The notes: generated by a model not told the origin, from the sequence alone. A DNA stretch of 64,000 bases from Methanomassiliicoccaceae archaeon (GCA_003550345.1 PUJZ01000017.1:30225-94224); one strand, 5' to 3'. Shown: positions 30,318 through 41,844, numbered from the stretch's first letter. A program made the numbers and translations.

Positions 30318-30617
30318 TCACGTTTGTTCGTCCAGCTCCGATAGCTCCTTCAGCAGGTGCAGGGCCTTCGTCCAGGATTCCACGCTGACAACCTTAGGCC
30401 CCATCCCGGGGACCTCCTCCACGCTGTACTCGTCCCCCTCGAACCGGAGGAACATCACCTGGTAGCCGTCGGAGTCGAAACCCTCGATGCGGGGGTTGCC
30501 GACCACCGAGGCCCCATAGTCGTTGTCGAAGCGGTAGATCTTATGGAACCTGCCGCCGTCCATGCATCCGCAGACGCACTTGGCGTTAAGGTCTATCTCG
30601 AACTGTTCGATGTCCAT
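30318..30617 (-). CDS. Hypothetical protein
   Basis: MDIEQFEIDLNAKCVCGCMDGGRFHKIYRF; GAGGGA SD upstream of ATG 30617. Confidence 0.65.
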   Translation of the reverse strand: MDIEQFEIDLNAKCVCGCMDGGRFHKIYRFDNDYGASVVGNPRIEGFDSDGYQVMFLRFEGDEYSVEEVPGMGPKVVSVESWTKALHLLKELSELDEQT

Positions 30618-30906
30618 TCCCTCACCTGCTTTCTTGCCCGGACCGATGGCGGACCGCGGCCCGCCGCGCCCTTCTGAGATAGGGAACCTTGCGGCGGGTA
30701 TTAATAACCGGGCGGGACTGATTATATTCATCTTGTCTTATAAATGGGTTTACCAAGTGTTTTGTTATTAACAGCTTATAGTCGGGGGGGTCATGTTAAC
30801 TATTGTTTGCGCCTAAGATAACTATTTATAGAATGTAGATATGCATTTTTCGTTTATAGGCCTATTATCTACTTATTCTGTTGTTGTTTTCTGTTTTTAC
30901 TCGTTC

Positions 30907-31047: not shown

Positions 31048-31689
31048 ATGAGTAAAGAGGAGATATTGAACGGATTGAGCGAGGCCGTGGTCCTAGGGAA
31101 GCCTGACCAGGCCAAGTCGTACGCCCAGAGGGCGGTCGACGAGAAGGTCAGCCCCTTGGACGCCATCAATGACGGCCTCGTGAAGGGCATGTCGGTTGTT
31201 GGCGACCGCTACGCCGCCCGGGAGGTTTACCTTCCCCAGGTACTGATGTCGGCCAACACCATGTACGCTGGTCTTGACCTGCTTCTCCCCATGATCCCCA
31301 CCGAGGACCTGGCGGACAAGAAGAAGGTCATAATCGGCGTGGTCGAAGGAGACGTGCACGACATCGGCAAGAACATCGTCAAGACCATGATGACCGCCGG
31401 AGGCCTGGAGGTCAAGGACCTCGGCAGGGACGTGCCCATTACCACCTTCGTGGACACCGCCGAGAGCATCAAGACCGATGTGGTGGCCATGAGCACCCTG
31501 ATGACGCCCACCATGGACGGCATGAAGGACGTCATCGACGGGCTGGTGGAGAGCGGCTACCGCTCCAAGACCAAAGTGGTCATCGGCGGCCCGCCGACCT
31601 CGCCTGACTTCGCCGAGGAGATCGGCGCCGACCACCGCGATGCGAACGCCCAGGATTCCGTGGCATGGCTGAAGGAGGCGTTGTTTTGA
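31048..31689 (+). CDS. Methyltransferase corrinoid (B12-binding) protein, MtbC/MttC-type
   Basis: GVVEGDVHDIGKNIVKTMM (DxHxxG), VIGGPPTS; N-terminal capping helices. Confidence 0.93.
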   Translation: MSKEEILNGLSEAVVLGKPDQAKSYAQRAVDEKVSPLDAINDGLVKGMSVVGDRYAAREVYLPQVLMSANTMYAGLDLLLPMIPTEDLADKKKVIIGVVEGDVHDIGKNIVKTMMTAGGLEVKDLGRDVPITTFVDTAESIKTDVVAMSTLMTPTMDGMKDVIDGLVESGYRSKTKVVIGGPPTSPDFAEEIGADHRDANAQDSVAWLKEALF

Positions 31690-32774
31690 ACCATATCGAG
31701 AGGGCGATGGCCTCCCTCGGGGACGAGGAGGTTGACCGCCTCACCTCATACCCGATAGCCTGCGGAGTCAACCGCAAGCTGCTCAACGGCGGAAAAGGCG
31801 TAACCTACGCCGAGTGGTGCCGGGACCCCAAGCTCTTCGCCGAGAGCTTCGTCGCAGGCCACAAGTACTTCGACTTCGACTTCGCCATCGGCCTCATGGA
31901 CCTCTCGGTCCTGGCCGGAGACCTTGGCGCCAATGTGCGCATGGACGATGAGAACACACCGTTCGTGGACAAGCACATAATCCACAGCCCCGAGGACTAT
32001 GAGAAGCTGGAGGTCCCTGACATCAAGAAGGGAAGGTCGAACGTCATCATCGAGGGGACGAGGATCTTCTCCGAGAAGCTGGCCGGCGAGGTCATCACCG
32101 CCGGTTTCCTGGAGGGTCCCCTGCTCGCGCTGACGCAGACCGCTGGCGCCGAGAGGGTCTTCATGGACATGTTCACCGACCCCTCAGTGGTCCACAAGGG
32201 CCTGGAGGTGATGGTGGAGTTCGACCGTCAGATGGTCGAGGCCTTCGGTGAGACGGGCTGCAACGGCCTGGTCTGGGACTACCTGTGGGCCAACTACTCC
32301 TGCCTGGGGGATTCGGAGTACAACGAGTTCGAGGGGCAGAGCAAGTACGCCGGGATGCTGAACAAGCTCACCTCGGACTGCGGTATGGCGTTCTGCATCC
32401 ACAACTGCTCGGACCTTCCCCACCTGGACACGCAGGTGAATGATTTCAAGCCGGTGATCTACAGCATGGCCTACTACCCCCTGATACCTGACTCGCCCAG
32501 CGCTGGCGAGGTGATCGACCAGGGGTACGCGGACAACTGCCTGATGGCCGGCAACATAGACCCGCAGATGTTCATCCGCGCCACCCCGGAGAAGATCTCC
32601 AAGGTGACTGATGATCTGTGCCAGGAGGTCAAGACCGCCCTGTGCAAGAGGGGGCTGAAGTCCCGCTACTGCATATCCAGCGGTTGCGAGGTCCCGCCTG
32701 ACATAGCCACCAAGCTGGAGAACATCAAGGCCGTCGTCGACGTGACCAAGGAGAAGGGCAAGGTCGAGTGCTGA
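31686..32774 (+). CDS. Uroporphyrinogen decarboxylase family methylcobamide methyltransferase (MtbA/MtaA-like)
   Basis: TTGA overlap start; zinc-site pattern AFCIHNCSD (HxC) ... CISSGCEVPP. Confidence 0.87.
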   Translation: MNHIERAMASLGDEEVDRLTSYPIACGVNRKLLNGGKGVTYAEWCRDPKLFAESFVAGHKYFDFDFAIGLMDLSVLAGDLGANVRMDDENTPFVDKHIIHSPEDYEKLEVPDIKKGRSNVIIEGTRIFSEKLAGEVITAGFLEGPLLALTQTAGAERVFMDMFTDPSVVHKGLEVMVEFDRQMVEAFGETGCNGLVWDYLWANYSCLGDSEYNEFEGQSKYAGMLNKLTSDCGMAFCIHNCSDLPHLDTQVNDFKPVIYSMAYYPLIPDSPSAGEVIDQGYADNCLMAGNIDPQMFIRATPEKISKVTDDLCQEVKTALCKRGLKSRYCISSGCEVPPDIATKLENIKAVVDVTKEKGKVEC

Positions 32775-32840
32775 AACCTTTCGAAAGCGACTTTATGCAG
32801 AAACCCTTTACCAAACACTTTACCGTCGAACGTGATAACA

Positions 32841-33512
32841 ATGAAGGTCTCGCAGATTGCAGGATTCCTCGGCAGCGGGAAGACAACCGCCCTCATGAAG
32901 ATAGCGGAGGGGCTGGTCAACAAGGGCTGCCGCATTGCCATAGTGGTCAACGACGTGGGTGAGATAAGCATCGACTCCAAGTTCGTGGAGGCCAACGGCC
33001 TGGAGGCGAGGGAGATAGCCGGCGGCTGCATCTGCTGCCAGATAGCCGGCTCCTTCGCCGAGACGCTGGTCAAGCTCCATGAGGTCTTCGACCCCCAGAT
33101 AGTCATCGTCGAGCCTTCAGGCGTGGCCATCCCCTGGGGGCTGAAGAGGGCGGCCGAGTACTCCGAGGCCAAAGCGGAGATGGTCATCGAGCACGCCCCC
33201 GTTATAACATTGGTGGACGCCACTCGCATCGACATGCTGTTGAAGGCCGTCCGCAGGCTGGTGGAGACCCAGATACGCGAGGCCGACGTCTGTTTCGTCA
33301 ACAAGGTCGATGCCGCTACCCCCGAGGCGGTGGCCAAGACCGAGGAGTTCATAGCCAGCATAAACCCGAGGGCGGAGATCGCCCACCTCTCCTCCGTGAC
33401 CGGGGAGGGTTTGGACCTGGTTTACGAGGTGATAGTGGACAGGATATCGCCGCGTTACGACGACGCGGTGGAGGAGGAGCTGCTCCGCAAACAGTACAGC
33501 AGGAGGGAATGA
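32841..33512 (+). CDS. CobW/G3E-family (COG0523) GTPase
   Basis: GFLGSGKTTALMKI Walker A; GGCICCQ metal-binding CxCC; NKVD. Confidence 0.9.
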   Translation: MKVSQIAGFLGSGKTTALMKIAEGLVNKGCRIAIVVNDVGEISIDSKFVEANGLEAREIAGGCICCQIAGSFAETLVKLHEVFDPQIVIVEPSGVAIPWGLKRAAEYSEAKAEMVIEHAPVITLVDATRIDMLLKAVRRLVETQIREADVCFVNKVDAATPEAVAKTEEFIASINPRAEIAHLSSVTGEGLDLVYEVIVDRISPRYDDAVEEELLRKQYSRRE

Positions 33513-33979
33513 GCATGTCCGGGGACGACCACGACGACCTGCATCTCGACCTGCACCGGGCGGTCGATGAGCTGGGGAAGTACGCCATAGTGATAAATGT
33601 CAAGTCCGAGGACGGGGTGAGCAAGGCCGATGTGCTGAGGTTCGTCAACCACATCATGAAGCGTTCCGTCCAGGTTTGCATGGAGAACGGCGCGGACATC
33701 GTCGGCCATGTGAAGTCCTTCGTGTGGAGCTCCGAGGGGAACATCATGGGGAGCATAGTGGACGCCGCCCAGGAGGAGGTTGCGTTCAAGGACGCCCTGC
33801 CGGTGGAATCGCTGAAGGAGTTCGAGTTCACCATGCACGTGATCGTCCATGGCATATGGGACGACGTGGTGAGGGGCCTGACGCGCTCGATATTGGACGA
33901 GGTCTTCGCCGATTACGACATGGACTTCGAGATCGTCGACGACCACTATGAGGTGGAGAAGGGGATGGACCATCACTGA
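33509..33979 (+). CDS. Hypothetical protein with His/Asp-rich termini
   Basis: N-term GDDHDDLHLDLH and C-term DDHYEVEKGMDHH; ATGA overlap with G3E gene. Confidence 0.75.
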   Translation: MSMSGDDHDDLHLDLHRAVDELGKYAIVINVKSEDGVSKADVLRFVNHIMKRSVQVCMENGADIVGHVKSFVWSSEGNIMGSIVDAAQEEVAFKDALPVESLKEFEFTMHVIVHGIWDDVVRGLTRSILDEVFADYDMDFEIVDDHYEVEKGMDHH

Positions 33980-33988
33980 GGTGTTTTC

Positions 33989-34309
33989 ATGTTGGGTAAC
34001 AAGGGATACTATGATGCCATGAGGAGCAAGGGCTTCTCGCCCCAGACTGTGAGGTCGCTCCGTAAGTTCGACTGTCCGGTCTGCGGATTCCAGTTCTCGA
34101 TGCTCTATGCGCGCACCATAGCCTGCCAGGGCTGCTCGGAGGCGATGAACGACTGCCCCAAGGTGCGCTGCGCCAAATGCGACGCCGAATTCTACATACG
34201 GGACACTCCGGAGGTGTTCGGCAAGAACCACGAGAAGATGATGGCCGACCACATATCCCAGGTCGTGAGCAAGTACAACAAGGACATGGGATGGAGCGGG
34301 AGGAGGTGA
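33989..34309 (+). CDS. Small zinc-ribbon protein
   Basis: CPVCGFQF...CQGCSEAMNDCPKVRCAKCDAEF. Confidence 0.78.
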   Translation: MLGNKGYYDAMRSKGFSPQTVRSLRKFDCPVCGFQFSMLYARTIACQGCSEAMNDCPKVRCAKCDAEFYIRDTPEVFGKNHEKMMADHISQVVSKYNKDMGWSGRR

Positions 34310-34313
34310 GGTC

Positions 34314-36329
34314 ATGTCACTGGGCCTGGGCATAGACACGGGCGGGACATACACCGACGCGGCGCTGTACGACTTCAGCTGCCAAGAGGTGCTCGGCAAG
34401 GCCAAATCCCTCACCACCAGGGACGACCTCTCCATCGGCATATCCAAGGCGATAGCGCATATGGGGAGCGAGCGCCTGTCCGAGGTGGAGCTGGTCTCGG
34501 TGTCCTCCACATTGGCTACCAACTCCATCGTGGAGGGGAAGGGGTGCCGCGTCGCCCTGCTGGTGATCGGCAGGGACTACGACCGTTCCATACCGGTGGA
34601 CGTTATCGGCAGGGTCGCCGGCGGCCATACGCTGTCGGGGGACCAGGCCGAGCCGCTGGACGAGGAGGCCGCGGAGAGCTTCATACGCCAGTACGCCGGC
34701 GTGGTGGACGCTTTCGCCATCTCTTCGTTCCTTAGCGTCCGCAACCCCGAGCACGAGGACCGCGTGAAAAATATTGTCAAGGAGGTCTGCTCGAAGCCGG
34801 TGGTCTGCGGCCATGAGCTGTCCTCCAGCCTCGGGTTCAACGAGAGGACGCTCACCACGGTGATGAACGCCCGCCTGATACCCATCATCGCCGACCTGAT
34901 GGAATCGGTCAAGAAGGTGCTCGCCGAGATGGGCATCGAGGCCCCGATGATGATCGTCAAGGGCGACGGCTCGATGATGGGCGAGGCGGTGGCGCTGCAG
35001 CGGCCGGTGGAGACGATACTCTCCGGCCCCGCCTCCAGCCTCACCGGGGCGAAGATGCTCACCGGCAAGGACGACGCCATCGTGGTGGACATGGGGGGGA
35101 CCACCACCGACATCGGCATTCTGCGCCAGGGCCACCCGCGCCTGGACCCGGAGGGGGCGCTCATAGGGGGCCGTCGCACCAGGGTGCTGGCGGCCGACAT
35201 ATCGACCTCCGGCATCGGCGGCGACAGCCGCTTCGTCGTAAACGGGAACAAGCTCATACTCACGCCGCTGCGGGTCATACCGCTGTGCATCGGCGCCTCC
35301 CAGCACCCCGACCTGGTGGACAGGCTCAAGAAGGCCGCCGCCAGGGTCTCACGCTTCACGCCGGAGAGCATGGACATCGACAATGTGATACAGGACGTGG
35401 AGTTCTTCGTGCTGCTCAAGGACGGGGCCGATGTGTCCCTGTCCGAGAACGACAAGGCGTTCCTCCGCCTCCTCCAAGAGGGCCCGCACTCCCTCTTGGA
35501 GGCCAACGAGGTCCTGGGCATACACCAGTTCTCCTTCAACGTGAAGAAGATGGAGGGGATGGGCCTGATAACCCGCATGGGACTTACGCCCACCGACCTG
35601 CTCCATGCCGAGGGGTCGTATGCGGAGTACTGCGCCGAGGCCTCGCGCATAGCCCTCGACCAGCAGGCCAAGCGCATGGGGGCAAGCAGCGAGGACTTCC
35701 TCTCCATCGCCAAGACCATGGTGCTGGAGAAGCTGTCCATCGAGCTCCTGCGCAAGCTGGTCTACGAGGAGACGGGGAAGGAGGCCGAGGGAGCGGTGGC
35801 CTTTGACCTGCTGGGGAAGACTATAACCGGCGCCATGGGCAAGGACTACTCCTGCAGTCTGAGCCTGAACAAGCCCATCATCGGCATCGGCGCCCCCATC
35901 GGGGCCTACTTCCCCACCATAGCGGAGCGTTTCTCCACCGAGCTCTTGCTGCCGGAGCACGCCGAGGTGGGCAACGCCGTAGGGGCCATAACCGGCAGCG
36001 TGGTGGAGAAGATGAACATCCTCATCAAGCCCAAGACGGGCATGGGTACCGCCGAGGACCCGCCCTGCACCCTGTTCTCCACCCTGGAGAAGAGGGATTT
36101 CGCCTCCGTCAGCGAGGCGGCCGAGTACGCCGTCAAGGTGGGCTCGGAGCATGTGGGCCGCATGGCGAGGGTGGCCGGCGCTGACTCGGTGGAGATCACG
36201 GTGGAGAACCACGACCGCAAGTTCGGCTTCGGGCAGGAGTACGATGGCGAGGCCCTCCTGGAGAAGCATATCCTGGTCACCGCCGTGGGCAAGCCGCGGC
36301 AGTTCTACGCCGGAGGAGCTTGCCGATGA
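34314..36329 (+). CDS. Hydantoinase/oxoprolinase-like (HyuA-type) ASKHA ATPase with embedded winged-helix-like segment
   Basis: GLGIDTGGTYTDAALYD; VVDMGGTTTDIGIL; VSSTLATNSIVEG; internal LRLLQEGPHSLLEANEVLGIHQFSFNVKKMEGMGLI. Confidence 0.87.
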   Translation: MSLGLGIDTGGTYTDAALYDFSCQEVLGKAKSLTTRDDLSIGISKAIAHMGSERLSEVELVSVSSTLATNSIVEGKGCRVALLVIGRDYDRSIPVDVIGRVAGGHTLSGDQAEPLDEEAAESFIRQYAGVVDAFAISSFLSVRNPEHEDRVKNIVKEVCSKPVVCGHELSSSLGFNERTLTTVMNARLIPIIADLMESVKKVLAEMGIEAPMMIVKGDGSMMGEAVALQRPVETILSGPASSLTGAKMLTGKDDAIVVDMGGTTTDIGILRQGHPRLDPEGALIGGRRTRVLAADISTSGIGGDSRFVVNGNKLILTPLRVIPLCIGASQHPDLVDRLKKAAARVSRFTPESMDIDNVIQDVEFFVLLKDGADVSLSENDKAFLRLLQEGPHSLLEANEVLGIHQFSFNVKKMEGMGLITRMGLTPTDLLHAEGSYAEYCAEASRIALDQQAKRMGASSEDFLSIAKTMVLEKLSIELLRKLVYEETGKEAEGAVAFDLLGKTITGAMGKDYSCSLSLNKPIIGIGAPIGAYFPTIAERFSTELLLPEHAEVGNAVGAITGSVVEKMNILIKPKTGMGTAEDPPCTLFSTLEKRDFASVSEAAEYAVKVGSEHVGRMARVAGADSVEITVENHDRKFGFGQEYDGEALLEKHILVTAVGKPRQFYAGGACR

Positions 36330-36961
36330 GGGTGGGCGTCATCGCCTGCGACATATTCAAGGAGGAGGTCGAGGCGCTCGTCGAGGGCGATGAGGACATC
36401 GTCCACCTGGAGTTCCTGGAGTTCGGCCTCCATATCGAGCCGGAGAGGATGAGGGAAACGGTGGTGGAGAGGGCCAACGCCCTCAAGGGCAAGGTCGACG
36501 CCCTGCTGCTCGGCTACTGCTACTGCCAGAGCCTCATGGGCGTCACCAAGGACATCGAGATTCCAGCGGAGATGGTCCACACCGACGACTGCATCGGCGT
36601 CTTCCTCACCCCCTCGGGGTACGCCGAGGAGCGGCGCCGATGCGCCGGCACCTGGTACAACTCCCCGGGCTGGACCAACCTTGGCATAGAGGGCTCCATC
36701 AAGGAGCTGCGCCTGGACACGGTGGAGGGCATCGACCCCATGGACCTGCTGCGGATGATGTTCGAGAGCTATTCCCGCTGCCTGTTCATCGACACCGGCG
36801 TGGGCGATGTTGACTCCCTTCGGGAGCGTTCCCAGCAGTTCGCCGCCGAGATGGACCTCGACCATGAGGAGACCATGGGCGGATACGGGATGCTGGCCGA
36901 GGCCCTGGAGAAGGTCAAGCAGATGGCGAGGGACAACGGCGGTCAGGAGCGCAGCCGGTAG
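36326..36961 (+). CDS. DUF1638 family protein
   Basis: LLLGYCYCQSLMGV; AGTWYNSPGW; ATGA overlap with upstream gene. Confidence 0.85.
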   Translation: MRVGVIACDIFKEEVEALVEGDEDIVHLEFLEFGLHIEPERMRETVVERANALKGKVDALLLGYCYCQSLMGVTKDIEIPAEMVHTDDCIGVFLTPSGYAEERRRCAGTWYNSPGWTNLGIEGSIKELRLDTVEGIDPMDLLRMMFESYSRCLFIDTGVGDVDSLRERSQQFAAEMDLDHEETMGGYGMLAEALEKVKQMARDNGGQERSR

Positions 36962-38862
36962 CTGCTGTTGGGGACCATCATCTCGATGCGGACCCCCTCC
37001 CCGGGCAGGCCGGTATCCATCAAGACGATCTTGGAGACGGAGAGCACCTCCTTGACCAGGTACATCCCGTTCTCGCCCACGGTCCCAACGGAATCGAGGG
37101 GCTGGTCCTTGCCTGCCTCGGAGAGGCCCTCGCCGTCGTCCTCGTAGACTATCCGCATGCGGCCGTCGGTTATGTCGAAGCCCACCTTGATGCTGGTGAC
37201 GCTGCCGTCCCGCAGGCTCATCGCCATCAGGTTCTCGAAGACCTTGTGGAGCTGGGGGTCGGCGAAGACCTCCAGGTTGCCGGTGTTTATCTGCAGCATC
37301 CCCTCAGGGACCTCGAACGCCAGAGAGGCCCTCGCCACGGCATCGCTGACGCTCTGCCATTCAGGGCTCATTATGCCCACGTTGCGGAAGTCGCGGGAGA
37401 ATCGCATCCTCTCATGTATGCGGCCGGACGCTTCCAGTATGCGCTCCATGTGCTCGTCCAGGACCTCGTCGTCGCTCATCGTCCTGACGAAGTTCACGTA
37501 GCCGTCGATTATCTGCAGCTGGTTGTAGACCTCCAGGAAGGTCATGCGGTCCACCACGTTCAGCTGGAAGGAGGCCCTCTCCAGCTTCTCCAGCGATGAT
37601 TCGATCTCGCTCATGTCCTCGAGGGTTATTATCGCCCCTTTGGGCTCCTGGCCGTTCATGCGGGGCTGTATGGAGACCTGGACTGAGATGTTGCTCTCCG
37701 GCGACTTGAACCTTATCTTGGCGCTGCTGGGGCTGCGCGAGCGCAGCGACTCCATCACCGCCGAGTAAAGCTGCACGGTGAAATCGTCCTTGTAATCGAT
37801 GAGCGACTTGCCGATGTGGCCCTCGTCGGAGAGCTGGTCGAGGAGCTTCCTCGACTTGAGGTTGCACTCCACTATAAGGCCTTGGTTGTCCACCGCCATT
37901 ATGCCCACGGGGGCGAAGTGCAGCATCTCCTCGTAGCGTCTCTCGGTCTCGTACCTGGCCTCACCGGACATGCGGCCCATGTATATGCTGGCCATGCCGT
38001 CCATAAGCAAGGTCATCTGGTTGATGTCGGAGCTGTCGTAAGGCTGCACCTTGTTGGCCACCCCGGCGGTGCCTACCACCTTGCCATCGTGCATGAGGGG
38101 GACCATGAGCAGCCTGTCCAGGGACACGTGCCCCTCGGGTATGCCCTTTATTAGCGGATGGGGGGCCTTGTAATCGTTGACTATGATGGCGCGCTTCTGC
38201 CGCACCGGCTCCCCCCATATGCCCACCTTCTCCATGGGGTACTCTATGGGCTTGTCCTCCACGCGGCACTGCCTCATCCCCGCCTGCGACCATGAGTACA
38301 TGGTGAGAAGGTCGCGTTTCTCATCGTAGAGGGCGAAGTAGCCCATCTCGCTGCGCGTCAGCTTCACGGTCTCCTCGAGGACGAAGTGGGCAACCTCGGA
38401 GAATCCGTAGTTGTGCATCTTCGCCAGCCTGACCAAGGCCTTGAGCCTGCGCTCGCTGAGGGAGCGCTCCTCGTCTATGCGCCTCTTCTCCACCGCCAGC
38501 ACGATCTTGTCCGCCAGGTCGCTGAAGAGCTCGCGCGGGGGGCGGTCCCTGATGAGGTAGAAGTCGATGCCCAGATTCATGGCTTCCACGGCCAGCTCCT
38601 GGGAGCCGTTGGAGACGATGGTTATGAAGGGGAAGTTATCGTTCCGCCGCAGCAGGGTCTTGAACAGCGCGAGGGCATCCATCCCCGCGGCGGGGTCGTG
38701 CCCTGAGACCACGATGTCGGGATGGTACTTGTCTATCAGATCCAGCATCTCGTTGGGTTCAGGGCAAGGTATCACCCTGAGGTCGCGGTTTATCCTGGTG
38801 AGGAAGGTGACGGCCATCTCCATGAAGGCCTGGTCCTTCTCAACGAGAAGCGCCCTGTACAT
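36943..38862 (-). CDS. Receiver-like/GAF/PAS/HATPase sensor protein lacking phospho-His (pseudokinase candidate)
   Basis: Receiver-like VVSGHDPAAGMDALALFK; GAF; PAS; FLEVYNQLQII in H-box position; YEDDGEGL. Confidence 0.8.
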   Translation of the reverse strand: MYRALLVEKDQAFMEMAVTFLTRINRDLRVIPCPEPNEMLDLIDKYHPDIVVSGHDPAAGMDALALFKTLLRRNDNFPFITIVSNGSQELAVEAMNLGIDFYLIRDRPPRELFSDLADKIVLAVEKRRIDEERSLSERRLKALVRLAKMHNYGFSEVAHFVLEETVKLTRSEMGYFALYDEKRDLLTMYSWSQAGMRQCRVEDKPIEYPMEKVGIWGEPVRQKRAIIVNDYKAPHPLIKGIPEGHVSLDRLLMVPLMHDGKVVGTAGVANKVQPYDSSDINQMTLLMDGMASIYMGRMSGEARYETERRYEEMLHFAPVGIMAVDNQGLIVECNLKSRKLLDQLSDEGHIGKSLIDYKDDFTVQLYSAVMESLRSRSPSSAKIRFKSPESNISVQVSIQPRMNGQEPKGAIITLEDMSEIESSLEKLERASFQLNVVDRMTFLEVYNQLQIIDGYVNFVRTMSDDEVLDEHMERILEASGRIHERMRFSRDFRNVGIMSPEWQSVSDAVARASLAFEVPEGMLQINTGNLEVFADPQLHKVFENLMAMSLRDGSVTSIKVGFDITDGRMRIVYEDDGEGLSEAGKDQPLDSVGTVGENGMYLVKEVLSVSKIVLMDTGLPGEGVRIEMMVPNSSYRLRS

Positions 38863-38893: not shown

Positions 38894-40822
38894 TCATGCT
38901 GGGTCAGGCCTGTTCGCCCCGGCGCTGCGGTGGGCCCCGGGGGGCACCCTTATCTCGAAACAGGCCCCCTCGCCCTCCTTCCCGCATTCGCGGATCTCCA
39001 TCCCGGTGAGCTGCAGTATCTCCCTGACGAGGAACATGCCCATCCCGGTGTTGGCCCCCACGCCCTTCAGGAATATGGCCTCCTTCCTCTCCGCGGGCAC
39101 GCCCACGCCATCGTCCTCGTAGACCATGACGAACGAGCCGTCGTCCTCGACGCGGCCGCTGAGCTCCACCCGGGTAGCATCGCCGGCATGCCTCATGGTG
39201 TTCTCCAGCAGATTGTAGAGGGCGCGTTTGAATGCGGGGTCCGCCCATATCTCGCGGCCGTCGAGGCTTATCCGCACCTCGAGCGGCATGCCGTTCCGCA
39301 GCGCGGCCTCCGCCTCCTGCTGCAGCGGCAGCCAGCTCGGCCTATGCACGCCCAGCGATTGATAGGTTCGGGAGAACTCGAGGTGGTCGCTTATGGTCAG
39401 CAGGCTGCGCTCCATCCGGGCCGCCATGCCGGCCTCGGCGTCCCCGAGGCCCGATTCATTCAGCAGGCTCAGGTAGCCTCTGATCACCTGGAGCTGGTTG
39501 CTGACGTCGTGCCGGGTCACCTGGTCGATGGTCTTTAGCCGGTTGGCGCTCCGCTCCAGCACGTTCATCGCCTCCTTCTCCTCTGTGGCGTCCTCCATCA
39601 CCAGGACCGCCCCGTTGAAACGGTATCGCTGGTCCCATAGCGGCGACGCGTAGCATCGCCAGTGGGTCACCCGGTCCGCCGCTCGGCGGTGGATTATCTC
39701 ATCCTTGACGTTGCCCCCTTTACTGCGGCACTCCTCGAAAAGGCGGCGTACGTCGGCGATGAGGCCGTCACCGCCTTCTAGCATGTCCATGTCCCGGCTC
39801 AGGAAGCCGCCGTCGATGTTGATGAAGAGGTCGTTGGCATCGGCCAGCCTTCTATCGGCATCGATGACCGCCACCGCCAGCGGTATGGCGCGCAGTACGG
39901 CCTCGTAGCGCTTCTCCGTCTCGTACAGCACCGCATCGCGGGCGCTGATGTCGTAGAGATGCTCCATGCCCTGCATCATGAGGGTGAGCTGCCGCAGGTC
40001 ATCCTCGTCGTATGGCTCCTCCTTGTTGGCGACGCCGCAGGTGGCGACTATCCTGCCCTTGCTGAGGATGGGTATGGCCATATACCGGGATATGCTTACA
40101 TGGCCCCGGGGGGCGCCCCGCTGCAGAGCGGTCTCTTTTGCGTAGTCGTTGATCACGATGGGCCTCCCCTGGCGCACCGGCTCCCCCCAGAGGCCGGTCT
40201 CCTCCAGGCGATAGAGGAGGGGGCGCTCCCTCATGCGGCAGCGGTCGAGGCCGCCTTTGGACCAGGCGAACATGTTCAGGGTCCCCTCCTCCGTGTTCAC
40301 CGTTGCCAGGTAGCCCATCTTGCTGCCGGTTATCTGCACCATCCTCTCCAGCATGAAGTGGGCCATCTCATGGAAGGGCGCCGACCGTTTCTCCGCCAGG
40401 TCCACCAGCGTATGCAGGCGGTACCTGTCCAGCTCGTTCTCGCGCTCGCGTCGGCGCCTCTCAGCGATCCGGGAGATCTTCTCTTTGATCGACGGCAGGG
40501 GATCCCTCCGTTTTGAGCAGTAATGGTCGGCCCCCGCCTCCATCGCCTCGATGGCCAGATCCTCGGAGCCGTCTTCCGCTACGATGATGAAGTGCATGCC
40601 GGGAGAGATGGCTCGCAGCTCGGCCATCAAGGACAGGGCGTCAAGAGGGCCGCCGTGGCCGCTGACCGCCGCATCATAGCTCGCCGTCCCCGCACTGGCC
40701 AAGGCCTCGGCGGGGCCGGCCGCCGTCGACACTTCCAGCCCGTCAATGGACGAGAGCTCGGATGCGGCCCGCTCCAGGAATGAAGGGTCATGGTCCACGA
40801 GCAGTACGCGGTAGCAGGCCAT
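38894..40822 (-). CDS. Receiver-like/GAF/PAS/histidine kinase
   Basis: VTRHDVSNQLQVI H-box; ADPAFKRALYNLLENTMRH N-box; YEDDGVGV; receiver-like N-term YRVLLVDHDPSF. Confidence 0.87.
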   Translation of the reverse strand: MACYRVLLVDHDPSFLERAASELSSIDGLEVSTAAGPAEALASAGTASYDAAVSGHGGPLDALSLMAELRAISPGMHFIIVAEDGSEDLAIEAMEAGADHYCSKRRDPLPSIKEKISRIAERRRRERENELDRYRLHTLVDLAEKRSAPFHEMAHFMLERMVQITGSKMGYLATVNTEEGTLNMFAWSKGGLDRCRMRERPLLYRLEETGLWGEPVRQGRPIVINDYAKETALQRGAPRGHVSISRYMAIPILSKGRIVATCGVANKEEPYDEDDLRQLTLMMQGMEHLYDISARDAVLYETEKRYEAVLRAIPLAVAVIDADRRLADANDLFINIDGGFLSRDMDMLEGGDGLIADVRRLFEECRSKGGNVKDEIIHRRAADRVTHWRCYASPLWDQRYRFNGAVLVMEDATEEKEAMNVLERSANRLKTIDQVTRHDVSNQLQVIRGYLSLLNESGLGDAEAGMAARMERSLLTISDHLEFSRTYQSLGVHRPSWLPLQQEAEAALRNGMPLEVRISLDGREIWADPAFKRALYNLLENTMRHAGDATRVELSGRVEDDGSFVMVYEDDGVGVPAERKEAIFLKGVGANTGMGMFLVREILQLTGMEIRECGKEGEGACFEIRVPPGAHRSAGANRPDPA

Positions 40823-40869
40823 CGAGGGGAGCAAACCCCATCGCGATGATAAAGGTAATGAATAATACT

Positions 40870-41844
40870 TCACTGATATTCGAGGTCGGTGGAGAAGCTC
40901 CACATGCGGGGATAGCTGCCCCGCTCCATGAAGACCCGGCGGGTGCGGAGGGCGATCCCCTTCTCCGCCTCAGCGAGCCTCTGGGCGGAGAGCAGGGGGT
41001 CGCCGATGGCGACCAGCTCCCCGCGCGAGCTCATCATCGCCGCCGGGGAGCCTTTGCGCAGGCCCTCATCGAAAGCGGCCACCCCCGGCACGGCGAGGTC
41101 GGCGCCGTGACAGACCGAGTCCACCGCCGCCGTCTTCAGCACCACGCGCGGAAGGTGGCTGACCAGCGACTCGGCCGGCCTGATGATGCCGTCGAGCACG
41201 TCCGCCCGCCCGCACTCCTGCCAGAGCTCGTAGGCGTCCTTGAGCTGCTGCAGCGTCACCGCTTCGGACTCGGACATTCCTCCGGAGCGGGTCCGCCGCA
41301 GCTCCGCCATGTTGGCGCCCGCCCCCAGCGCCTCGCCGATGTCGATGCACAGGGTGCGGATGTAGGTGCCGGCGTCGCAGGCCACCCGGAACAGCACGTC
41401 GCGGCCGCTGATGTCCAGGATGTCTATGCTGTGCACAGTCCTGATGCGCAGCTGCCTCCTCACCGCTGAGCGCAGCGGCGGGAACTGGTAGATGCGTCCG
41501 ACGAACTCCGCCATCACCCTCCTCACCGCCTCGGGGTCGCGGTGGCGGTGGAGGCGCATCACGCAGACGTACTCCTTGTCCGCCCCCAGCATCAGGTCGG
41601 TGAGCCTCACCGCCTTGCCCACGCATATCGGCAGCACGCCGCTGACGTTGGGGTCCAGGGTGCCGCCGTGGGCAATCCTGTCCACCTTGATGGCGTCCCG
41701 CGCCCAGGAGGCGACCTGGTGGGAGGTGGGGCCCATGGGCTTGTCCAGGACCAGGACTCCGTTGCGCAGCCTCTCCCCCAGGCTGCGGTCGCTGGGGCGC
41801 TTGCCCCAACGGTTGGGAACGGGGTCCTCGGACTTGATTATCAG
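40870..41844 (-). CDS. cbf5: tRNA/rRNA pseudouridine synthase Cbf5 (dyskerin), probable non-canonical start
   Basis: GVLVLDKPMGPTSHQVASWARDAIKVDRIAHGGTLDPNVSGVLP; conserved N-term lies upstream of first ATG at 41736. Confidence 0.88.
   Translation of the reverse strand: MIIKSEDPVPNRWGKRPSDRSLGERLRNGVLVLDKPMGPTSHQVASWARDAIKVDRIAHGGTLDPNVSGVLPICVGKAVRLTDLMLGADKEYVCVMRLHRHRDPEAVRRVMAEFVGRIYQFPPLRSAVRRQLRIRTVHSIDILDISGRDVLFRVACDAGTYIRTLCIDIGEALGAGANMAELRRTRSGGMSESEAVTLQQLKDAYELWQECGRADVLDGIIRPAESLVSHLPRVVLKTAAVDSVCHGADLAVPGVAAFDEGLRKGSPAAMMSSRGELVAIGDPLLSAQRLAEAEKGIALRTRRVFMERGSYPRMWSFSTDLEYQ

Follow-up and report, generated by a model that had tools for sequence, protein, structure and literature searches.

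The DNA analysed here (the window) is a stretch of 64,000 nucleotides from the genome of a Methanomassiliicoccaceae archaeon (GCA_003550345.1, PUJZ01000017.1:30225-94224). At positions 31048-36961 it carries seven co-directional genes, W1 to W7, built around a corrinoid (B12-binding) protein, W1, and a methyltransferase of the URO-D family, W2. With a probability that we put at about 0.55, the operon serves a methyl-reducing methanogen as a corrinoid-dependent methyl-entry module, with W2 as a zinc-dependent substrate:corrinoid methyltransferase (MT1). In the scheme that we infer, for its reactions and for the roles of W3 to W7 alike, W2 would move the methyl group from the donor to Co(I) on W1. 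The group would then be passed on to coenzyme M (CoM) for Mcr by a CoM methyltransferase of the MtaA/MtbA type (MT2) from another part of the genome or, should W2 be bifunctional in the manner of MtsA, by W2 itself. RamA proteins from elsewhere would reset Co(II), with the DUF1638 protein W7 assisting, while the HyuA-type ATPase W6 and the Cys-rich W5 would maintain W1 as an ATP-driven chaperone or reactivase and not as a substrate enzyme. W3 and W4 would form a split CobW-like chaperone that delivers cobalt (or zinc) to the system.

The original prediction for this DNA had named seven co-directional genes of these kinds, and they were confirmed by coding periodicity and, for five of them, by Pfam profiles: all lie on the plus strand and have a strong coding-like GC periodicity. 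The gene overlaps that it claimed were seen as 25 nt between W1 and W2 and as ATGA between W3 and W4 and between W6 and W7. It was also right that the window has no match to MtaB, MtmB, MtbB, MttB or RACo/RamA in profile searches; these searches read through stops, so a pyrrolysine TAG would not hide MtmB, MtbB or MttB.

The corrinoid protein and the URO-D methyltransferase

W1 (31048..31689, plus strand, 213 aa) combines the domains PF02607 and PF02310, has the motif GDVHDIG, in agreement with the DxHxxG corrinoid signature, and falls slightly under the TIGR02370 cut-off (202.9 vs 215.3 bits). Among solved structures, those closest to it include MttC (7xcn) and MtmC (3ezx). W2 (31665..32774, plus strand, 369 aa) matches PF01208 with 147.5 bits, and its zinc-site pattern, H246xC248...C341, is invariant in an alignment of 18 sequences. 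It lies far under the cut-offs of both the MtaA/CmuA model (TIGR01463, 69.7 vs 235.4) and the methylcobalamin:CoM methyltransferase model (PRK06252, 76.4 vs 244), and its zinc-site signature reads HNC...GCE where the CoM methyltransferases have HIC...GCG. In a tree of 31 URO-D proteins, with no MtsA, MtoB or CmuA reference among them, W2 formed one clade with its orthologs, two Asgard sequences and one Methanosarcinales sequence (support 100/99), and the CoM methyltransferases of the same genome fell into a separate clade (97/97). Searches of W2 and the URO-D of contig C10 of this genome against plasmids gave weak URO-D matches only (22-28% identity), with CmuA not among the matches listed.

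Previously, the URO-D group has been described to include MtsA, which is bifunctional and acts on methylated thiols, the chloromethane MT1 and the methoxy-aromatic MtoB (PMC8630106), and MecE and CmuA have been described as substrate methyltransferases (PMC9768040). Because of these precedents, the clade apart from the CoM methyltransferases, the corrinoid partner of its own and a fusion of the two domains in a relative, W2 is probably an MT1, possibly a bifunctional one, and the original view that the cluster has no substrate methyltransferase is probably wrong. A cluster on contig C10 (L046), in which a corrinoid protein is followed by a GCE-type URO-D, a GCG-type URO-D, RamA and DUF1638, pairs both URO-D types with one corrinoid protein, as would be expected if the GCE type were MT1 and the GCG type MT2.

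Conservation of the module and methanogenesis genes of the host

The original prediction had called for a synteny survey, and the arrangement was found to recur in 75 loci of other genomes in a scan of genome_contigs, so it is not due to chance. Nearly all of these loci belong to Methanomassiliicoccales, the others being from Jordarchaeia/Freyarchaeota (L176, L178, L179) and from one Methanosarcinales metagenome-assembled genome (MAG; L180). W1 directly precedes W2 in 58 of 67 loci, and within 8 kb downstream of W2 (51 loci) W6 was found in 41, W5 in 39, W3 and W4 in 27 each and W7 in 10. The Asgard loci L176, L178 and L179 have W1 and W2 only, without HyuA, and in L180 (1-1776) a single open reading frame of 591 aa (cut by the contig end) encodes a corrinoid/URO-D fusion, with a HyuA gene after it. 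The module in L180 suggests transfer between orders. As judged from the core-only Asgard loci, the frequent pairing and the fusion, W1 and W2 appear to be the functional core, HyuA the most constant accessory and W7 the least constant member. Tandem copies of W1-W2 exist in some genomes. The best named match in genome_contigs, with W2 91% identical, was the Methanomassiliicoccaceae MAG T1Sed10_112, whose contig contains the same sequence as the region from the genus mate G001.

The substrate was also sought among the neighbours of the module, where cobalt chelatase or importer genes, an ABC-F type ATPase, Fur-like and HTH_10 regulators, sensor kinases and FAD oxidases recur, and none of these names a substrate. 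We found no description of the module in the literature; the closest accounts are those of COG0523 subfamily 13, of DUF1638 and B12 reactivation, and of the bacterial glycine betaine 'HydA'.

The host is a draft genome of 1.4 Mb that is 89% complete. McrB (TIGR03257, 654.9 bits vs the cut-off of 516.25) and McrA (PF02745 match at C66:24673) are present, so the host is a methanogen. Two RamA proteins, one on contig C66 and one on C10, score above the TIGR04270 cut-off, a further activator of the RACo type, on contig C94, carries Fer2 and RACo domains, and three URO-D proteins (C66, C10 and C13) pass the PRK06252/TIGR01463 cut-offs as CoM methyltransferases of the MtaA/MtbA type. RamA and MT2 are therefore available in trans, merely outside the window, and W1 shares its genome with the MT2 and RamA of the canonical three-component system. 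The genome has 12 URO-D proteins and only three stand-alone corrinoid proteins; eight URO-D genes are without a corrinoid neighbour (one each on contigs C13, C93, C41, C64, C60 and C51 and two on C42). Another cluster of the host, on contig C66 (L045:8586-18445), holds a corrinoid protein, a HyuA ATPase, an MtbA-type MT2 and RamA, then DUF169, Lrp-like and YcaO genes, directly upstream of mcrB/mcrD, and its corrinoid protein has no adjoining substrate methyltransferase.

In guts, wetlands and sediments, Methanomassiliicoccales are major methyl-reducing methanogens, for which the usual basis of substrate prediction is MtaB, MtmB, MtbB and MttB. These four MT1 families (MtrH-type proteins not among them) were searched, with stops read through, in 61 genomes of the order including that of the host (G000), MttB in 37 of the 61; incompleteness of MAGs can hide genes in such a survey. 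In the 89% complete host genome the substrate METHYLTRANSFERASE search found none of MtaB, MtmB, MtbB and MttB above cut-off, a single MtaB match of 17.6 bits being under the cut-off and disregarded, and none of the four was found in the genus mate G001, which is 97% complete. Among the other genus mates, MttB and MtbB were found in G002 and G003 and MtmB in G002-G004, all with in-frame TAG. Ten mcrA-positive genomes that were searched for all four families had none of them (G000, G001, G012, G037, G038, G039, G040, G042, G043 and G045), and thus the source of their methane is not predictable today. W2, which is present in 34 of the 61 genomes, is carried by five of these ten (G000, G001, G012, G037 and G042), and the URO-D/corrinoid module is a concrete candidate for a methyl-entry route in methanogens without the known MT1s.

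Several observations weigh against a methyl-entry module with W2 as MT1. The HxC...C site is common to MT1 and MT2 roles, and W2 could be a divergent MT2. Three of the five genus mates (G002-G004) possess pyrrolysine methyltransferases, and the remaining five mcrA-positive genomes (G038, G039, G040, G043 and G045, 90-99% complete) have neither the four MT1 families nor W2. Across the 61 genomes, the presence of W2 did not correlate with the absence of MtaB, MtmB or MtbB (Fisher p 0.30, 0.75 and 1.0). No adjacent transporter points to a substrate, and certain HyuA genes of the subfamily to which W6 belongs have no corrinoid gene near them (L067, L068, L073 and L075). The lack of correlation and the five MT1-less methanogens without W2 rule out W2 as the sole or universal substitute for missing MT1s; it would instead be one module among several. 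Only tentatively, and at less than even odds, we suggest that a sizeable part of Methanomassiliicoccales, including nearly complete MT1-less genomes, makes methane from a donor not yet known for them by means of a new clade of URO-D MT1s and a new reactivase of the HyuA type.

Accessory proteins and neighbouring genes

W6 (34314..36329, plus strand, 671 aa) is an ASKHA ATPase of the HyuA type (PF05378, 100.3 bits; PF01968, 104.7 bits) in which the nucleotide motifs DTGGTYTD, D.GGT..DI, GIGAP and GNA.GA are all conserved. Its AlphaFold2 model (predicted local distance difference test, pLDDT, 85.1) gave N-methylhydantoinase (9h03), acetone carboxylase (5svc) and caprolactamase (6yra) as the best Foldseek matches, with an acetophenone carboxylase subunit also near (template modelling (TM) scores 0.56-0.62), whereas RACo (3zyy) reached a TM score of about 0.13. 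The RACo C-terminal domain (PF14574) was not found in W6 or anywhere on contig C80, and W6 has scattered conserved cysteines only, with no Fe-S-type or ferredoxin-like cysteine motif. The partner subunit HyuB (PF02538) was not found in the host genome or in 59 of 60 relatives, and its absence from 60 of 61 genomes rules out W6 as a hydantoinase.

Relatives of W6 are found in a pyrrolysine methylamine cluster (L064) together with MttB, MtbB, MtbA, DUF1638 and RamA, and in L045, the cluster immediately preceding mcr that combines a corrinoid protein with HyuA, MtbA and RamA. Other B12 enzymes have ATP-driven reactivases that are likewise ASKHA proteins. Since a protein of the W6 type is common to systems with different substrates, its target is more likely to be the corrinoid protein than the substrate, and by this analogy W6, with W5, is most likely an ATP-driven chaperone or reactivase of the corrinoid protein. 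A third HyuA paralog of the host (L044:183-3403) has as its neighbour a gene that by eye resembles CofE (F420-0:glutamate ligase), as is also the case in a genus mate (L083). HyuA homologs with one and two in-frame TGA codons were seen at G056:C2:48341-50344 and G060:C22:76833-78842, respectively.

W5 (33989..34309, plus strand, 106 aa) is a small zinc-ribbon-like protein (CPxC...CxGC...C...CxKC) whose cysteines are conserved in 24 homologs. A further Cys-rich protein that resembles W5 (about 41% identity) was seen outside the module, close to a different URO-D gene (L098:7205-10603). W7 (36326..36961, plus strand, 211 aa; PF07796, 111.5 bits) was read from the ATG at 36326, which we judged to be a better start than the TTG at 36320 (213 aa). 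Mutants of Phaeobacter tie DUF1638 and a RamA-like protein to the reactivation of methionine synthase, with no mechanism proposed (PMC5764234). The HyuA ATPase and DUF1638 both bear on how corrinoid proteins stay active.

W3 (32832..33512, plus strand, 226 aa) is a G3E/COG0523 GTPase (PF02492, 130.1 bits) with the motif GGCICC; it starts with GTG, an ATG being also available at 32841. The CobW C-terminal domain was not matched in W3, which has the N-terminal domain only, and the nearest solved structure is YjiA (1nij). W4 (33509..33979, plus strand, 156 aa) is rich in His and Asp and is the partner of the GTPase. Neither W4 nor W5 matched a Pfam or NCBIfam family. The W4 orthologs share the invariant motifs HR..D.LGK, GAD..GH.K and H.IVHG.WD, and some have His-Asp-rich N-terminal tails. 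The AlphaFold2 model of W4 (pLDDT 84.8) found no convincing match in the PDB: the sole match with E<0.001, to Hsp90, had a TM score of 0.28 and was judged meaningless.

CobW, a cobalt chaperone that serves CobNST, probably binds the metal at CxCC and has a His/Asp-rich region in its C-terminal domain (PMC7689651), and COG0523 subfamily 13 has been noted near archaeal corrinoid methyltransferases (PMC2770081). The idea in the original prediction that the G3E and His-rich pair supplies metal or cobamide gained support from other genera, where the module adjoins CobN, ChlI and ChlD (L109, L112, L124, L127 and L155) or the cobalt import genes CbiM/CbiQ/CbiN (L129, L132, L145 and others). W3 and W4 look like a split CobW-type chaperone, and the CobN and CbiM neighbourhoods point to cobalt as its metal; zinc supply for W2 is possible. 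Elsewhere, a second G3E GTPase (39% identical to W3) with a 129-aa partner stands beside two divergent URO-D genes, with no corrinoid protein (L094:5388-9787), and in L093:5093-7050 and L100:15062-16748 a URO-D gene lies beside a small CobW-like gene, near what appear by eye to be carbon monoxide dehydrogenase and CooC-type genes.

The operon is flanked upstream by a divergent gene for a 137-aa protein (30318..30731, minus strand), which lies no more than 8 kb from W2 in 9 of the 28 loci whose flanks are complete and is a repeated neighbour of the module across several genera. Downstream, and convergent with the operon, lies a receiver-GAF-PAS sensor kinase (36943..38862, minus strand; PF00072, PF13185 and PF00989), with a second, related one in tandem at 38894-40903. 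Homologs of the sensor kinases are found at most 8 kb away from W2 in 8 of the 28 loci, other genera included, and the kinases may regulate the operon.

Alternative explanations and known systems

The alternative that comes closest is that W2 is a divergent MT2 dedicated to W1, with the substrate methyltransferase being an unrecognised or orphan protein elsewhere. This would agree with the URO-D fold, with the HxC...C site shared with MtaA/MtbA, with MtaA (4ay7) as the best solved match and with the several orphan genes among the URO-D proteins of the host. However, three other proteins of the genome pass the CoM methyltransferase cut-offs that W2 falls far under, the GCE signature and the separate clade set W2 apart, and the C10 cluster holds both URO-D types, and we therefore regard a dedicated MT2 as unlikely. 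Somewhat less likely still is a role of the module outside methanogenesis, in anabolism or cofactor traffic, such as methyl supply for methionine or corrinoid loading and exchange. Asgard archaea that are not known to be methanogenic do have corrinoid-URO-D pairs (L176-L179), some copies stand beside genes for cobalt chelatase or import, and DUF1638 was discovered through methionine synthesis (PMC5764234). An essential anabolic step, in contrast, would not be expected to be as patchy as W2 is within the order, and the tandem W1-W2 copies and the multiplicity of modules look like substrate diversification.

Two further proposals concern W6 only and overlap with the readings above. W6 might phosphorylate the substrate by HyuA chemistry on an amide or carbonyl, making an N- or O-methyl compound a donor for W2. 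The nearest folds (N-methylhydantoinase, caprolactamase and acetone carboxylase) and the annotated hydantoinase, 'HydA', drawn in bacterial glycine betaine clusters (PMC9768040) would suit such a kinase, but proteins of the W6 type are also found in methylamine clusters, where this activation is unneeded, HyuB is nearly always missing, and the Jordarchaeia modules do without HyuA; the proposal is improbable. The least probable is that W6, alone or with W5 or DUF1638, replaces RamA as the reductive activator, a role that the original prediction, which saw no RamA-like activator in the window, had considered for the ASKHA protein. The ASKHA fold, a cluster without RamA and the adjoining Cys-rich W5 are in line with it. 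This suggestion did not hold up, as RamA is encoded twice in the genome, W6 has neither a RACo domain nor a ferredoxin-like site, and its closest folds are lactam and carbonyl kinases of the HyuA type. RamA beside the cluster in relatives, a case that the prediction had raised, was found for HyuA paralogs, where the two are located together (L045, L064 and L065), and not for the module of the window type. A methyl-entry module with W2 as MT1 and W6 serving the corrinoid protein remains the explanation that we prefer.

Compared with MtaABC and with MtmBC/MtbBC/MttBC plus MtbA and RamA, the module has a corrinoid protein of the same family and a zinc URO-D enzyme, and Mcr, an MtbA-type MT2 and RamA are found elsewhere in the host. 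It differs from these three-component systems in that the operon is without MtaB/MtmB/MtbB/MttB, MT2 and RamA, with the URO-D protein proposed as MT1, and in that it adds the HyuA ATPase, the Cys-rich protein and the G3E/His-rich pair. MtsD, MtsF and MtsH are URO-D/corrinoid fusions for methyl sulfides. A URO-D protein with a corrinoid partner or fusion and the HxC...C site are shared with these proteins and MtsA, with CmuA (chloromethane), MtoB (methoxy-aromatics) and MecE (dichloromethane), and the fusion in L180 is a CmuA/MtsF-like arrangement. As judged by profile score and zinc-site motif, W2 differs from this group: it scores low with the MtaA/CmuA model and has the GCE signature.

W6 shares domains, nucleotide motifs and fold with the HyuA/oxoprolinase group (N-methylhydantoinase, caprolactamase and acetone carboxylase subunits), but is associated with corrinoid proteins and has no HyuB or B-type partner in the genome. 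Like RamA and RACo, it is an ASKHA ATPase tied to corrinoid methyltransferases, but the RACo C-terminal domain and Fe-S sites of these activators are missing from it. With CobW (COG0523) and subfamily 13 (PMC2770081), W3 has in common the G3E domain with CxCC, the clustering with corrinoid methyltransferases and, in relatives, CobN; it is without the C-terminal domain of CobW, whose His/Asp-rich region may be replaced by the separate W4.

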